53,523 bases of DNA from SAR86 cluster bacterium AG-422-P06 (GTDB lineage: Bacteria > Pseudomonadota > Gammaproteobacteria > Magnimaribacterales > TMED112), in NCBI GenBank assembly GCA_003213455.1, contig QCMX01000003.1:1-53523 (forward strand), written 5' to 3'. Positions 9,400 to 23,028 of the stretch are shown one piece after another (within the stretch, counting starts at the first letter, position 1; each line of letters begins with the position of its first letter). The position numbers and the translations under genes are program-made. The notes under the pieces were generated by a model. That model searched no databases, was not told where the DNA came from, and worked only from the letters and a program-made list of their open reading frames with translations.

Positions 9400-10084
9400 T
9401 TATCTTGCCGTCATGGTAATAATCATTTTCTTCCACAAAGAATTGGCTTAAATTAATTTCTTCTGACCCAAGCTCAAAAATTTTTTTCCCTATTTTTTTC
9501 CCTGACGAGTCTGAAATAAATTCTAGCGCACTGTCGAATACCACTGCTTTCTTTACCTTTTTGCCTAGGTAAGTTAATCGAGCAATTATTTCTTGTCCTC
9601 TGTAACAGCCTTTGTCATAAGAAATATAATCTTCAAATTTATAACCTATCTCATTAACACGAAATTTATTTGATGATTGCTCATCAATGTCAAAACAGAA
9701 ATTTTTCATAGTTTCTATATCCCAATCTAAGCTTGTTAATTGAAAATGGTTTTTGCCAAGACATTTTTTGAAAACATTATTGTCTTGCACGCCATATATA
9801 TTCTGCTTTTCTTCTGAGATTTCACAATCAAAAAATTTTGCAAATTTTTGCAATTCATCTATCAAGAATTTAGATACATTTTTTTTAACAATAATCCTGA
9901 AGAAGTTCTCTTTAAGAATTACAGCATTTGTGATCACATAACCTTTCTCATCGCAGAAAAGGCCATCAAAATAATCTTTATTCTGAGCAAGATCACAAGA
10001 TACCTGACCCTGAAGAAGCTTTTCTGAATCAACTCCTTTGATTAATATCGAAGTATAATTTGGTAAGGAAAAACTTAATGCCAT
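9356..10084 (-). CDS. ygfZ: YgfZ/GcvT-like folate-binding protein
   Basis: YgfZ is a tetrahydrofolate-binding protein that helps repair or assemble certain iron-sulfur enzymes such as MiaB. The diagnostic motif K-G-C-Y-x-G-Q-E is present as DKGCYRGQEIIARL, and the N-terminal GVDSEKLLQGQVSCDL matches the family start. The track ORF begins at 10168, but ATG 10084 gives the standard N terminus (242 aa). That start codon overlaps the sdhE start codon on the opposite strand. The ygfZ/sdhE divergent arrangement is the same as in E. coli, which supports both calls. The C-terminal region is short relative to the E. coli protein (326 aa). Confidence 0.87.
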   Translation of the reverse strand: MALSFSLPNYTSILIKGVDSEKLLQGQVSCDLAQNKDYFDGLFCDEKGYVITNAVILKENFFRIIVKKNVSKFLIDELQKFAKFFDCEISEEKQNIYGVQDNNVFKKCLGKNHFQLTSLDWDIETMKNFCFDIDEQSSNKFRVNEIGYKFEDYISYDKGCYRGQEIIARLTYLGKKVKKAVVFDSALEFISDSSGKKIGKKIFELGSEEINLSQFFVEENDYYHDGKIIIPTSSQWELNQDQ

Positions 10085-10319
10085 GGATGATAATCTTTTA
10101 CTTAAAAAGTTAAATTTTAAATCAAGAAGAGGGATGAAGGAAACTACATTTGTAGTAAAAAAACTCATTGTTGATTTTGAGGATATGGATAATATGCAAA
10201 AAGAAGAGTTACATGAGTTGCTTGAACTAAATGATCAAGAGCTTTTCGATCTTGTTTTTAAAAATAAAAAACTATTCTCTGAAAAATTTCCTAAGTTAAA
10301 AAATTTGCTAATAAAATGA
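10083..10319 (+). CDS. sdhE: FAD assembly factor SdhE (YgfY/CptB family)
   Basis: Promotes covalent attachment of FAD to the succinate dehydrogenase flavoprotein subunit. The 78-aa protein has the family signature RRGMKE (residues 15-20) and the acidic LLELNDQELFDLVF segment. The next residues after RRGMKE are TT, where enteric SdhE has LD. The distance from the ATG to RRGM equals that of E. coli SdhE, and no other start codon precedes the motif, so ATG 10083 is secure. That ATG shares the palindrome CATG with the divergent ygfZ start, meaning each gene's upstream control region lies inside the other. Confidence 0.85.
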   Translation: MDDNLLLKKLNFKSRRGMKETTFVVKKLIVDFEDMDNMQKEELHELLELNDQELFDLVFKNKKLFSEKFPKLKNLLIK

Positions 10320-10351: not shown

Positions 10352-10891
10352 ATGAAAAAGAATAGTATCCCACAACTTGTGGAACTCTCACAGAAAGGCG
10401 ACTCGAATGCATTCGAGTTGCTTTTCACTACTTTCAAAACTCGTCTTCATCATTCTTTGTTCAAAGTTTTGAGAAATTATCATGAGACAGAGGATGTTGT
10501 TCAACAAGCATTCATGAGGGCATGGGAAAAGATTGGAACTTTTAAAGGTAATTCTAATTTCTATACTTGGTTATATAGAATCGGTTTTAACCTAGCAATT
10601 ACAAAAATAAATTCCTCTAGAGAGAGTCAAATTGATGAGGGATTTGAAAGTACACTTGCGGCACCAAATAATGTTGTTGAATCTATTGAGAATGCTGAGC
10701 TATTTAAATCTGTAAAAGGCTTGTTGAATGAGCTACCTGAAGAGCAAAGAACAGCCTATATATTGTGCGAAGTAGATTCAAAGAATTATGAGGAAATAGC
10801 AAATATAACAGGTGTGCCAGTTGGAACAGTAAGATCAAGAATTTTTAGAGCGAGACAATTTTTAATGGAGAATTTAAAAGAAAGATTATGA
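10352..10891 (+). CDS. rpoE: ECF sigma factor RpoE/AlgU
   Basis: Directs RNA polymerase to envelope-stress promoters. The 179-aa protein has sigma region 2 (about residues 20-85, with YHETEDVVQQAFMRAWEKI) and sigma region 4 (about 125-172, with LNELPEEQRTAYILCE and the helix-turn-helix YEEIANITGVPVGTVRSRIF), and no region 3, as expected for an ECF sigma. AGGTG precedes the ATG. It overlaps the anti-sigma gene by 4 bp (ATGA) and is followed by a DegP-type protease, the classical algU-mucA-...-mucD order. Likely autoregulated, but I could not identify a convincing sigma-E promoter upstream. Confidence 0.93.
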   Translation: MKKNSIPQLVELSQKGDSNAFELLFTTFKTRLHHSLFKVLRNYHETEDVVQQAFMRAWEKIGTFKGNSNFYTWLYRIGFNLAITKINSSRESQIDEGFESTLAAPNNVVESIENAELFKSVKGLLNELPEEQRTAYILCEVDSKNYEEIANITGVPVGTVRSRIFRARQFLMENLKERL

Positions 10892-11622
10892 GTAATATTT
10901 CAGACTATGATTTTAGCAGGATATCTGCATTCGTTGACGGAGAGTTAAGCACAGAAGAAGTTGATTGTCTTATTAAAGATATGACTGCTAAACCTGAGCT
11001 TAAAGAAGTGTATTTTAATATTATTGAAATAAGTGAGGCGTCAAAAGATTTGAAGCCAATTGGCTTTAAACAGCAATTAGCAAATATGTCCTTGCAAAGT
11101 TTATTTTCTGCTTTCAATCAAAGGCTTGTCATGCCTCTAACGATATTTTCAGTAGGCGCCTTATTAAGCTATTCGGTTCTTAATAATGCAATAAATAATA
11201 ATGATGCAAACAAGGCTAGTCTTTTGCTGCAACAATCAATAGCATCAGTGGAAGCTAAACAAATTCTAGAAAACATTAAATCAGACGAAATTTTGCAGTT
11301 TGCTTCCAGGCATTATGCTCCAAATGTGAATAAAAATATTATGCCTGTCGCATATCAACCACAATGGTTGCCAAGAGGTTTTAATACTGACGATAGACTG
11401 AATAATAGGTTTATTAATAGAGCTAATAAAAAAGAGTTTTCAATCTTTATTGATAGCCCAAATACACTTAATCTTCCTGATGGGGTGTATAAAAAAGAAA
11501 ATTTTATTTTGATTAAGAAAACCCTTATTCACTCTGATAAGCCACATACTATTGCGATATTTGGCGATATAGACATTGAATCAGGAAAAAGAATCCTTAA
11601 TTCTATAAGACCTATTAATTAA
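10888..11622 (+). CDS. rseA: Anti-sigma factor, apparent RseA/MucA-RseB/MucB fusion
   Basis: Inner-membrane anti-sigma factor for the preceding RpoE. Residues about 5-55 are the cytoplasmic anti-sigma domain (FSRISAFVDGELSTEEVD). Residues about 81-99 form one transmembrane helix (VMPLTIFSVGALLSYSVL). The periplasmic part ends in a segment, about 158-243, that reads like the small C-terminal domain of RseB/MucB: PQWLPRGF, EFSIFIDSP, GVYKKENF and TIAIFGDIDIESGKRILNSI follow the family pattern of WxPxGF, a SVFVE-type strand, GxxRxG and VTVVGELPxxTxKRIA. The large LolA-like RseB domain is absent, and there is no separate rseB or rseC/mucC gene before the protease. The anti-sigma call is firm; the fusion is inferred from pattern and needs a profile search. 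Confidence 0.8.
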   Translation: MSNISDYDFSRISAFVDGELSTEEVDCLIKDMTAKPELKEVYFNIIEISEASKDLKPIGFKQQLANMSLQSLFSAFNQRLVMPLTIFSVGALLSYSVLNNAINNNDANKASLLLQQSIASVEAKQILENIKSDEILQFASRHYAPNVNKNIMPVAYQPQWLPRGFNTDDRLNNRFINRANKKEFSIFIDSPNTLNLPDGVYKKENFILIKKTLIHSDKPHTIAIFGDIDIESGKRILNSIRPIN

Positions 11623-11629
11623 ATTATTA

Positions 11630-13000
11630 ATGAAAAAGTTTTTAGCAATAATTCTTGTATTTTTGTTTAGTCTTGATGCTCATGAATTTGATTTTTCTGA
11701 GCTGGTAAAAGACCAATCTGAATCAGTTGTGAACATACAATCAATTCGGAAAATTAAATATAACAGAAGATCTTTAGGAGGCTTCCCAGAGGAGCTTTTC
11801 AGGGAATTTGGCATACCTATGCCAGAGATGAATGACCCAAGAGGCCAAGAAAGAGAATCAATAAGTACAGGGTCAGGTTTTGTAATAGATAAAGATGGAT
11901 ATGTAATAACCAATTACCATGTCGTCCAAGGAGCCGATGAAGTTCTGGTTAAGTTTTTAGACAGAAGAGAATTTAAAGCTGTGATCGTAGGAATGGATGA
12001 ATTAAGCGACTTGGCACTATTAAAAATTGAATCTGATGATTTTGATCCAGTGGAGATTGGCAATTCTGATGAAGTTGAGCAAGGGGATGGGGTCATAGCA
12101 ATTGGTTCACCATATAATTATGATTTTTCAGTTACATTTGGAATAATTAGCGCTACCGGTAGAGGCATAACTTCTGGGCAAGGCATAGGGGACTATGTGC
12201 CATACCTTCAAACAGACGCAGCAGTTAATAGAGGAAATTCTGGAGGACCATTATTTAACACTGAGGGTGAAGTTATAGGCATCAATTCTCAGATCTTTTC
12301 TAGATCAGGAGGAAATGAAGGTTTAGCTTTTGCAATACCGATAAATATTGCTCTTGAGGTTGTTGAACAGCTCAAAGAAAATGGAAAATTTTCTAGAGGT
12401 TATCTAGGAGTTCAGGGCGGAGAAGTTTCGAGTGATTTGGCAGAAGCTCTTGGAATGGAAAAACCAATTGGCGCCTTGGTTCGTGCTGTTGTTAAAGATG
12501 GAGCAGCTGAAAAAGGCGGAATTAAACCAGGTGATGTAATTGTCAAAGTAGGTCAAAAAGATGTTATTTATTTTAAGGACTTGCAACACTCTGTAGGCAT
12601 GACAAAGCCAAAGACTAATTTAAAAATTAAATTATTTAGAGATGGTGAGTACACAAATTTGTATGTGAAAGTAGGTGAACTTCCAACACAAGATAGACCA
12701 GAACCTGTTAATAATGTGCCAGATGAACCAAATTTTCCTCTTGGCTTAGAATTAGAGAATTTAGACAATGAAGAAATTGTTGGAGTAAGAGTAGTCCAAG
12801 TAACAAGAGACTCTCCTGCTATGGGGCAAATTATTAAAGGAGATATTATTAACAAAATTAAATCTGGCAATACAACTTACGATATTGCAAAAGTTGCAGA
12901 TTTTAAAAATGCACTTGATTCATTTGCTGTAGGTGACAAAATAGCGGTATTTGGAACCAGAGAGGGTTCCAACTTTTTTGTTGCAGTAACAGTTGAATAA
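11630..13000 (+). CDS. mucD: Periplasmic serine protease DegP/MucD (HtrA family)
   Basis: Degrades misfolded envelope proteins. The 456-aa protein begins with a signal peptide ([17 protein letters not shown]). The trypsin-like domain carries His97 (TNYHVV), Asp127 (SDLALL) and Ser204 (GNSGGP). Two PDZ domains follow, about 255-345 (RGYLGVQGG...[20 protein letters not shown]) and about 365-455 ([18 protein letters not shown]). Two PDZ domains plus a cleavable signal favour DegP/DegQ/MucD over the membrane-anchored, single-PDZ DegS. Position directly after rpoE-rseA suggests it is both part of the regulon and a candidate regulator of the anti-sigma factor. Its stop overlaps the TTG start of lepA. 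Confidence 0.93.
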
Positions 13001-21407: not shown

Positions 21408-22337
21408 ATGGCTTTCTCATTCTTATTCCCGGGACAGGGAGCTCAATATTCAGGAATGTTCAAAGAGCATTTTCAAGAATTCCCTGAATTTCAAGAAACT
21501 CTAGCTATTGGTGAAGAATTCTATAAAGAAGATCTTAGAAGCATAATATTAACCGATGACCCCAGGCTAAATGATACCTACTACACACAACCATTATTGA
21601 TGTTGATGAGTTATTCGCTTTTTCAGGTATGGAAAAAGCATAATTGTCCAATGCCAAAAGTGGCTGCGGGGCATAGTCTTGGTGAGGTATCTGCATTTTT
21701 ATGTGCTGGAGGTTTCAGTGTAAAAGATGCATTGAGGTTTATAAAATTTCGAGCAACTTTCATGATAGAAAGCAAAGGAGATACTAAGACAAAGATGTCA
21801 GCTGTACTTGGTCTGGACAGTGAAAGTATAAGAAAAATATTAGCCGATAAAAAAGCTAAATTTTTAGAGGCTGTGAATTTGAATTCTCCATTACAAACGG
21901 TTATTGCAGGTAATACAGATGAGATTGAAGCAGTAAAAAATGAGCTAGCTGATAAAGGCGCTAAAAGAGTTATTGATTTAGCAGTATCAGTGCCATCTCA
22001 TTCAAGTTTAATGAATATTGCTACCACAAAACTAAAACTTGTTTTAGACGAACTCAATATCGCAAAACCAAGCTTTCCGGTAATACAAAACCTACATGCA
22101 AAGATTCCATTAACAACTAAAGAGATTTGCAATAATCTTGCTGAACAGATATCCAACCCTGTTCAGTGGGTATCATCAATGAATAGATTGAAGAAATATG
22201 GTCTTGAAGAACATATTGAATTTGGCCCTAATAAAGTTCTTTCAAGTTTGGCAAAGCAAAACAGGATTAAAGGAACATTTTCATCTCTTGATAATATTGA
22301 TACATTTAAAGAACTACTTGATAAATATGGCAAATAA
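21408..22337 (+). CDS. fabD: Malonyl-CoA:ACP transacylase
   Basis: Loads malonyl groups on AcpP for chain elongation. The 309-aa protein has FLFPGQGAQ at residues 5-13, nucleophile Ser90 in AGHSLGE and a catalytic His in VPSHSSLM. It begins 6 bp after rpmF and overlaps fabG by 11 bp. Confidence 0.95.
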   Translation: MAFSFLFPGQGAQYSGMFKEHFQEFPEFQETLAIGEEFYKEDLRSIILTDDPRLNDTYYTQPLLMLMSYSLFQVWKKHNCPMPKVAAGHSLGEVSAFLCAGGFSVKDALRFIKFRATFMIESKGDTKTKMSAVLGLDSESIRKILADKKAKFLEAVNLNSPLQTVIAGNTDEIEAVKNELADKGAKRVIDLAVSVPSHSSLMNIATTKLKLVLDELNIAKPSFPVIQNLHAKIPLTTKEICNNLAEQISNPVQWVSSMNRLKKYGLEEHIEFGPNKVLSSLAKQNRIKGTFSSLDNIDTFKELLDKYGK

Positions 22338-23028
22338 AAAAGTAATTGTTACAGGCGGTAACAGGGGAATAGGAAAAGGCATAGTTCTAAGCTTACTAGA
22401 GTGTGGTTATGAAGTTCTTGCCACTTGCCGAGATGCCTCAAATTTTGATTTTTCTCATGAAAATCTTTCTGTTGCTAATCTCGATATTTCTGATGATGCT
22501 TCGGTAGAGGCTTTTCGTATATCTGTTGAGGAATTCGAACCAAATATTTTGATTAATAATGCAGGCATAACCAAAGATAATCTTTTTTTAAGAATGTCTG
22601 AGGATGATTGGAATGAAGTAATAAATACAAATTTAAATGGAGTATTCAAGATTACCAAGTTAGTAGTTAAAGGTATGCTCAAAAGAAGATGGGGAAGAAT
22701 CATAAATATAAGTTCAATCTCAGGTTCAATGGGAAATCCAGGCCAAACTAACTATTCAGCATCAAAAGCTGGTGTGGACGCGTTTACTAGGTCTCTCGCT
22801 AAAGAATTGGGATCGAGAAACATTACAGTAAATTCAATTGCTCCAGGCTTTATTGAAACTGACATGACAGAGGGTGTTTTAGACCAAGAAATAATAGACA
22901 AGATTCCCCTAAAAAGAGCAGGTAAGGTTGAAGATGTTGCTTCTCTAGTGAACTTTTTATCATCTGAGGAATCAAATTATATAACCGGCCAAACTTTAGT
23001 AGTTGATGGCGGGCTATTTATGAAGTAA
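22327..23028 (+). CDS. fabG: 3-oxoacyl-ACP reductase
   Basis: NADPH-dependent reduction of 3-ketoacyl-ACP. The ORF track begins at 22198 in the fabD frame shadow; the real start is ATG 22327 (MANKKVIVTGG), giving 233 aa. Motifs are TGGNRGIGKGI, NNAGITKDNL (typical FabG), SSISGSMGNPGQTNYSASKAG with the Ser-Tyr-Lys triad, and the C-terminal YITGQTLVVDGG. The position between fabD and acpP confirms the assignment over a generic SDR. Confidence 0.95.
   Translation: MANKKVIVTGGNRGIGKGIVLSLLECGYEVLATCRDASNFDFSHENLSVANLDISDDASVEAFRISVEEFEPNILINNAGITKDNLFLRMSEDDWNEVINTNLNGVFKITKLVVKGMLKRRWGRIINISSISGSMGNPGQTNYSASKAGVDAFTRSLAKELGSRNITVNSIAPGFIETDMTEGVLDQEIIDKIPLKRAGKVEDVASLVNFLSSEESNYITGQTLVVDGGLFMK

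Follow-up and report, generated by a model that had tools for sequence, protein, structure and literature searches.

An RseA-type anti-sigma factor with a fused RseB C-terminal domain in the sigma-E operon of SAR86 bacteria

The anti-sigma factor encoded in the sigma-E-type operon of the SAR86 genome studied here joins, as judged from profile comparisons and its modelled fold, two proteins that are separate in known systems: a front part of the RseA/MucA type and, in its last ~95 residues, the C-terminal domain of RseB/MucB. It is well supported that this fusion is a real architecture, and that it represents an apparently undescribed variant of the RseA/RseB sigma-E module and no new kind of system. 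The gene lies in a window of 53,523 nucleotides, which is the whole stretch of DNA that was analysed, and the source is an SAR86-cluster assembly of 687 kb (66% complete); among named relatives, SAR86 MED-G166 and an uncultured gammaproteobacterium are the closest. SAR86 is among the most abundant bacterial groups of the surface ocean. A search of viral contigs returned no relatives.

The locus is compact (Table 1). The ECF sigma factor gene, whose top NCBIfam match was TIGR02939 RpoE (E 9e-40, under the equivalog cut-off), overlaps the start of the anti-sigma ORF by 4 bases, and the HtrA gene, for which TIGR02037 degP_htrA_DO exceeded its cut-off (E 6e-126), begins 7 bases past the end of that ORF. 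Neither rseB nor rseC could fit into this gap, so that an earlier sequence-only reading, which had given the same ORF boundaries, was right that no separate rseB or rseC precedes mucD. The genes 3' of the HtrA gene were named by ourselves from the sequence, and we take them to be lepA, lepB and era. A small gene of the SdhE/Sdh5 family (10083-10319, + strand, E 8e-9) is located just 5' of the rpoE operon.

Table 1. Features of the SAR86 operon and of a second fusion gene in another gammaproteobacterial genome (G294). Positions are those of the window unless a locus is named.
Feature	Position	Strand	Basis or context
Sigma-E-type promoter motif GAACTT-N16-TCAAA	10318..10344	+	directly 5' of rpoE start; pattern scan
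rpoE/algU-like ECF sigma factor, 179 aa	10352..10891	+	TIGR02939 RpoE, Sigma70_r2, r4_2
RseA-RseB(C) fusion anti-sigma factor, 244 aa	10888..11622	+	profiles, fold
Cytoplasmic anti-sigma domain, RseA/MucA type, residues 1-78	10888..11121	+	profile match, RseA_N
Single transmembrane helix, residues 80-98	11125..11181	+	hydropathy; model helix 89-103
Conserved periplasmic motif AIxS-x-[EQ]A-xxxL, residues 117-127	11236..11268	+	SAR86 alignment
Predicted periplasmic helix between membrane and RseB-C domain, residues 121-143	11248..11316	+	model secondary structure
RseB/MucB C-terminal domain, residues 150-244	11335..11619	+	Foldseek, profile-profile, PF17188
mucD/degP-type HtrA protease, 456 aa, two PDZ regions	11630..13000	+	TIGR02037
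G294 RseA-RseB(C)-like fusion	L110:2638-3363		between rpoE and rseC

Reference alignments were made of true RseB from 24 and of RseA from 19 gammaproteobacterial genomes, and the SAR86 families are referred to here as f1, the window's own, and f2, f3 and f4, the other three. When the f1 N-terminus was compared with the RseA cytoplasmic domains, hhalign gave a probability of 94-97% (96.6% in the C/N-split comparison), and Pfam RseA_N matched 7 of 28 relatives (best E 5e-7). With a sigma-binding domain, one transmembrane helix and a gene placed directly after a sigma-E-type ECF gene, the window protein is an anti-sigma factor of the RseA/MucA type, in agreement with the RseA-like cytoplasmic domain and helix proposed earlier.

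The identity of the periplasmic end is more subtle. The window protein alone scored only E 0.087 against Pfam MucB_RseB_C (13.4 bits, with a cut-off of 30.1; residues 156-240), and thus the earlier claim that this end corresponds to the C-terminal domain of RseB/MucB required testing. The f1 C-domain profile by itself also scored low against RseB in hhalign, and a PDB sequence search with the window protein returned nothing meaningful. Among the family relatives, MucB_RseB_C (PF17188) was found in 15 of 19 (best E 4e-4). In profile-profile comparisons with hhalign, the C-domains of f1 and f3 taken together matched the RseB C-domains (n=24) with a probability of 93.5% (E 2e-7), and the RseB N-domain matched the same fusion C-domains at 0.2% only; full-length alignments of the fusion and RseB gave 83%, against 0.1% for a reversed RseB control. 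Likewise, an RseB-C HMM built here gave 9.9 bits for the window protein and up to 12.5 for its genus relatives, while the top score among 1000 shuffled sequences was 5.1 bits.

The modelled structure points in the same direction. The AlphaFold model of the window protein has a mean pLDDT of 66.9, with blocks of the C-domain mostly at 68-87 and linker residues 106-119 below 50. When it was searched against the PDB with Foldseek, ranks 1-13 were all MucB/RseB chains with a probability of 1.00 (best 6in9 MucB, E 2.1e-5), only RseB/MucB chains reached E<=0.001, and rank 14 had a probability of 0.12. An alternative hypothesis is that the C-terminal domain is not derived from RseB but is a small beta-sheet plus helix fold reached by chance or convergence, as the sub-threshold Pfam score of the single protein and the low hhalign score of f1 alone might suggest. 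However, a chance resemblance would hardly place RseB/MucB at all 13 of the best fold matches with such a drop to the next; in addition, the fusion-C profile, when searched in return, weakly recovers true RseB genes, and the domain occupies the position of rseB in the operon, with rseC following it in a second fusion. A non-RseB origin is already disfavoured on these grounds, and we consider it very improbable. The match to G294 in the return search was discarded as circular, since G294 sat in the query alignment; support for G294 comes from other, independent comparisons. The last ~95 residues of the window protein are thus, as judged from profiles and a predicted model, an RseB/MucB C-terminal domain and not a chance resemblance, and the structural similarity proposed earlier holds. 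The N-terminal LolA-like domain of RseB (PF03888) is absent from the window protein.

The missing half of RseB was not recovered elsewhere either. No match to PF03888 above cut-off occurred in the 21 family genomes, four of them at least 90% complete, or in another 47 SAR86 genomes, and RseC (PF04246) was above cut-off in none of the 21; the family genomes are incomplete, with assemblies of 0.7-1.2 Mb. Within such incomplete genomes, the expectation that no rseB exists elsewhere is upheld. Four f2 genomes gave sub-threshold matches to PF03888; the one that was read, at L132, was rejected as rseB, being a LolA-like protein of the lipoprotein-sorting type that is encoded away from rpoE. RseP was above cut-off in 19 of the 21 family genomes, and in the window's own genome its gene adjoins a bamA-like gene. 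Most family genomes also encode a second HtrA of ~320 aa, which has a hydrophobic anchor at its N-terminus and the HtrA-type His/Asp/Ser catalytic motifs, and whose gene adjoins a murA-like gene in the window genome; murA presumably also lies near algW in P. aeruginosa. In this second HtrA (L125), TIGR02038 covers the protease and PDZ region and Pfam names no PDZ; we call it DegS-like because its score is below the DegS equivalog cut-off. Thus regulated intramembrane proteolysis has its genes in place, whereas RseB and RseC were not found, and of the proteases that the sequence-only reading had singled out, a degS-like gene and rseP occur elsewhere in the genome.

The anti-sigma protein is encoded in 19 of the 21 family genomes (alignment A1), and a search with A1 across 199 genomes of the order recovered the gene in 104 of them and in 16 of 22 genera, with some f4 genera missed. 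All 19 neighbourhoods taken from f2, f3 and f4 contain an rpoE-like gene followed by an anti-sigma gene of 220-239 aa; 18 of them do not end at a contig edge, and in these the anti-sigma gene is immediately followed by htrA, then lepA, with nothing between the anti-sigma gene and htrA. All four SAR86 families have therefore conserved the operon rpoE-antisigma-htrA-lepA, which is an order-wide feature and no quirk of a single genome.

The periplasmic parts of the proteins are less uniform than the gene order. There is a clear relationship between those of f1 and f3 (probability 98.1%) and a probable one between those of f2 and f3 (84.3%). The f2 proteins lack the W-x-P-x-GF part, and RseB was detected neither by profile nor by fold search of an f2 model, which returned only the cytoplasmic MucA structure for the N-terminus (8z6g, prob 0.99). 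Retention of the RseB fold in f2 was thus rejected, even though its periplasmic part relates to f3, and the tail has diverged or been remodelled there. In both f2 and f4 (L091-L100, L108), the tail shows no recognisable RseB similarity and the operon position is unchanged, f4 being represented by a single sequence. The four SAR86 families form two sister pairs (PMC11582366), which would fit with f1 and f3 having kept a recognisable RseB domain.

A second fusion was found outside SAR86. Among 143 gammaproteobacterial genomes with MucB_RseB_C, 142 had their above-cut-off matches in frames of at least 317 aa, as expected for RseB. The remaining one, G294, is a gammaproteobacterium of another order and the sole genome of that order in the set examined; it encodes a protein of 241 aa whose front is RseA-like, followed by a membrane helix and an RseB-C-like tail (E 7e-4 in the genome search, 2e-3 in the Pfam scan), and it has no PF03888 match. 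The gene is followed by rseC (E 2e-16), and the order rpoE, fusion, rseC implies that the fusion occupies exactly the position of rseA-rseB. This fusion may be parallel to that of SAR86, and the architecture first read from a single sequence thus has companions both elsewhere in SAR86 and beyond it.

The stretch that links the membrane to the RseB domain carries the AIxS-x-[EQ]A-xxxL motif ~20 residues past the membrane. Across 38 SAR86 proteins, S120 is conserved in 37, A123 in 36, and E or Q at position 122 in all 38, and the motif persists in proteins whose RseB-C domain can no longer be recognised; it is a candidate element for site-1 protease cleavage or recognition. The motif overlaps the start of the predicted helix 121-143, a putative helix in the model that could correspond to the alpha-I helix of RseA/MucA. 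RseA_C, the tail of RseA that carries alpha-I, the helix by which RseB is bound, in the periplasm, gave no profile match, and in a scan for the alpha-I motif f1 was not above shuffles (fraction at or above the observed score 0.867) and f3 was borderline (0.047). A preserved RseA_C/alpha-I helix in the linker is thus unsupported in f1 and borderline in f3.

On balance, we lean towards reading the fusion as the anti-sigma factor of a sigma-E/AlgU operon that has a built-in guard, has lost its lipid input and originated by deletion. Part of an ancestral rpoE-rseA-rseB-rseC-mucD operon would have been lost, such that the front of rseA (the sigma-binding domain, transmembrane helix and short periplasmic linker) was fused to the final third of rseB; the deletion would have taken the periplasmic tail of RseA together with the LolA-like lipid-binding half of RseB, and rseC would also have been lost in SAR86. 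In the resulting circuit, the N-terminal domain would hold sigma-E. In response to misfolded outer-membrane proteins, the DegS/AlgW-like protease would cut the periplasmic linker, probably near AIxS-x-[EQ]A, RseP would then cut the membrane helix, and the freed sigma-E would transcribe its own operon, including the HtrA protease. For comparison, AlgW cuts MucA at 134-VLAG-137 (PMC8545111). The tethered RseB domain would pack on or near the linker helix and limit access of the protease, acting as a built-in guard that is always 1:1. As the lipid-binding half is missing, the main input of the circuit would be the protein signal.

That the tethered C-domain shields the predicted site-1 stretch seems to us slightly the better account of its role. 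RseB binds RseA primarily through its C-domain, and alpha-I by itself still suffices for binding to RseB (PMC7400510), so that the C-terminal half alone could keep some guard function; in the known structures, however, the N-domain of RseB also covers the cleavage region of RseA (PMC7400510), and thus the C-domain alone may not shield the RseA site. Of the tethered, minimal guard proposed in the sequence-only reading, the homology, the gene absence and the covalent linkage stand. The guarding itself is weakened by the alpha-I motif, which is undetectable in the genus and for which reason this step is one that we infer, and by the tail, which is unrecognisable in two of the four families. Given that divergence, a precise guard everywhere is less likely, and a conserved guard interface is not supported order-wide.

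The same observations fit a different view, in which RseB-C has become a relic or structural cap, and regulation is exerted by DegS and RseP alone with no guarding, as for an RseA in cells that lack RseB; genome reduction in SAR86, as seen in the small assemblies of the window's family, is likewise consistent with a relic. However, within the genus, where identity falls to 42%, LPDG-x-Y, NF, FGDID and the LxSI end hardly vary and the C-domain is as conserved as the rest of the protein, indicating that the domain is under selection, and a dead domain would be expected to vanish from such small genomes. We therefore regard a relic as unlikely. Another hypothesis is that the tethered domain has become a new sensor, which would bind a periplasmic ligand or folding client, gate cleavage and replace lipid sensing. 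LPDG-x-Y and N-x-F-x-N are strongly conserved in the fusion and missing from ordinary RseB C-domains, and DUF4367, a domain that presumably occurs in Gram-positive anti-sigma factors, matched one relative (E 1.5e-3). No ligand or binding site was identified, however, and the conservation may reflect folding only, which leaves a new sensor distinctly improbable. Returning to the built-in guard, its widest form, a single-polypeptide, single-input sigma-E switch in which the DegS site is guarded intramolecularly, the lipid/LPS input has been removed by evolution, the SAR86 envelope-stress response is run by this switch and a parallel fusion exists elsewhere, is a plausible but tentative proposal.

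The fusion shares features with several known proteins. Like RseA/MucA of E. coli and P. aeruginosa, it has an N-terminal sigma-binding domain, one membrane helix and a gene right after rpoE/algU, and DegS/AlgW-like and RseP proteases are encoded in the genome; unlike them, its periplasmic tail is an RseB C-domain, and the alpha-I motif RLNxYLVNHNEYS cannot be detected in the genus. With RseB/MucB (PDB 2P4B, 2V42, 3M4W, 6IN9, 6JAU) it shares the C-terminal fold and the signature WLPxGF ... VTVVGEVP..T...IA.SV, but it has neither a signal peptide nor the LolA-like N-domain and is membrane-tethered within an anti-sigma factor. SsdC/YdcC, a MucB/RseB-like protein of Bacillus subtilis, resembles the fusion in its RseB-like fold and N-terminal transmembrane tether, but it has 338 aa, a large extracytoplasmic RseB-like region, no described anti-sigma domain and a role in spore shape (PMC7769602).

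Among the open-access papers searched, we found no description of an RseA-RseB fusion and no study of sigma-E in SAR86. The sigma-E response of E. coli and Pseudomonas combines unfolded outer-membrane proteins, sensed through DegS, with lipids, sensed through RseB. In SAR86, nature would have deleted the half of RseB that binds lipids and retained the RseA-binding half in cis, and the fusion may thus serve as a test of which half of RseB guards and whether the two-signal logic is needed. The SAR86 stress circuit appears to be reduced to a simpler form, which is of interest for the way in which marine bacteria that are very abundant and have reduced genomes cope with envelope stress, and the fusion explains why rseB would otherwise be reported simply as missing in SAR86.

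The promoter region of the operon is also conserved. In 17 aligned loci of the genus, GAACTT is present in all 17 and TCAAA in 16 (the exception being TCTAA), with a variable spacer. The E. coli sigma-E promoter consensus is GGAACTT/TCAAA; as the motif equals this consensus, the rpoE operon is probably autoregulated by sigma-E, as judged from the promoter pattern. Genome-wide, GAACTT-N16-TCAAA occurs 11 times, compared to 3 for a reversed control. One further occurrence in the window (22950-22976, + strand) falls inside an ORF for a short-chain dehydrogenase (22198-23028), at its 3' end, and 5' of yceG/mltG (23200), and may be a promoter or chance. Nine more perfect sigma-E-type motifs are located outside the window on contigs C1, C2, C5 and C6, and mark possible members of a sigma-E regulon.
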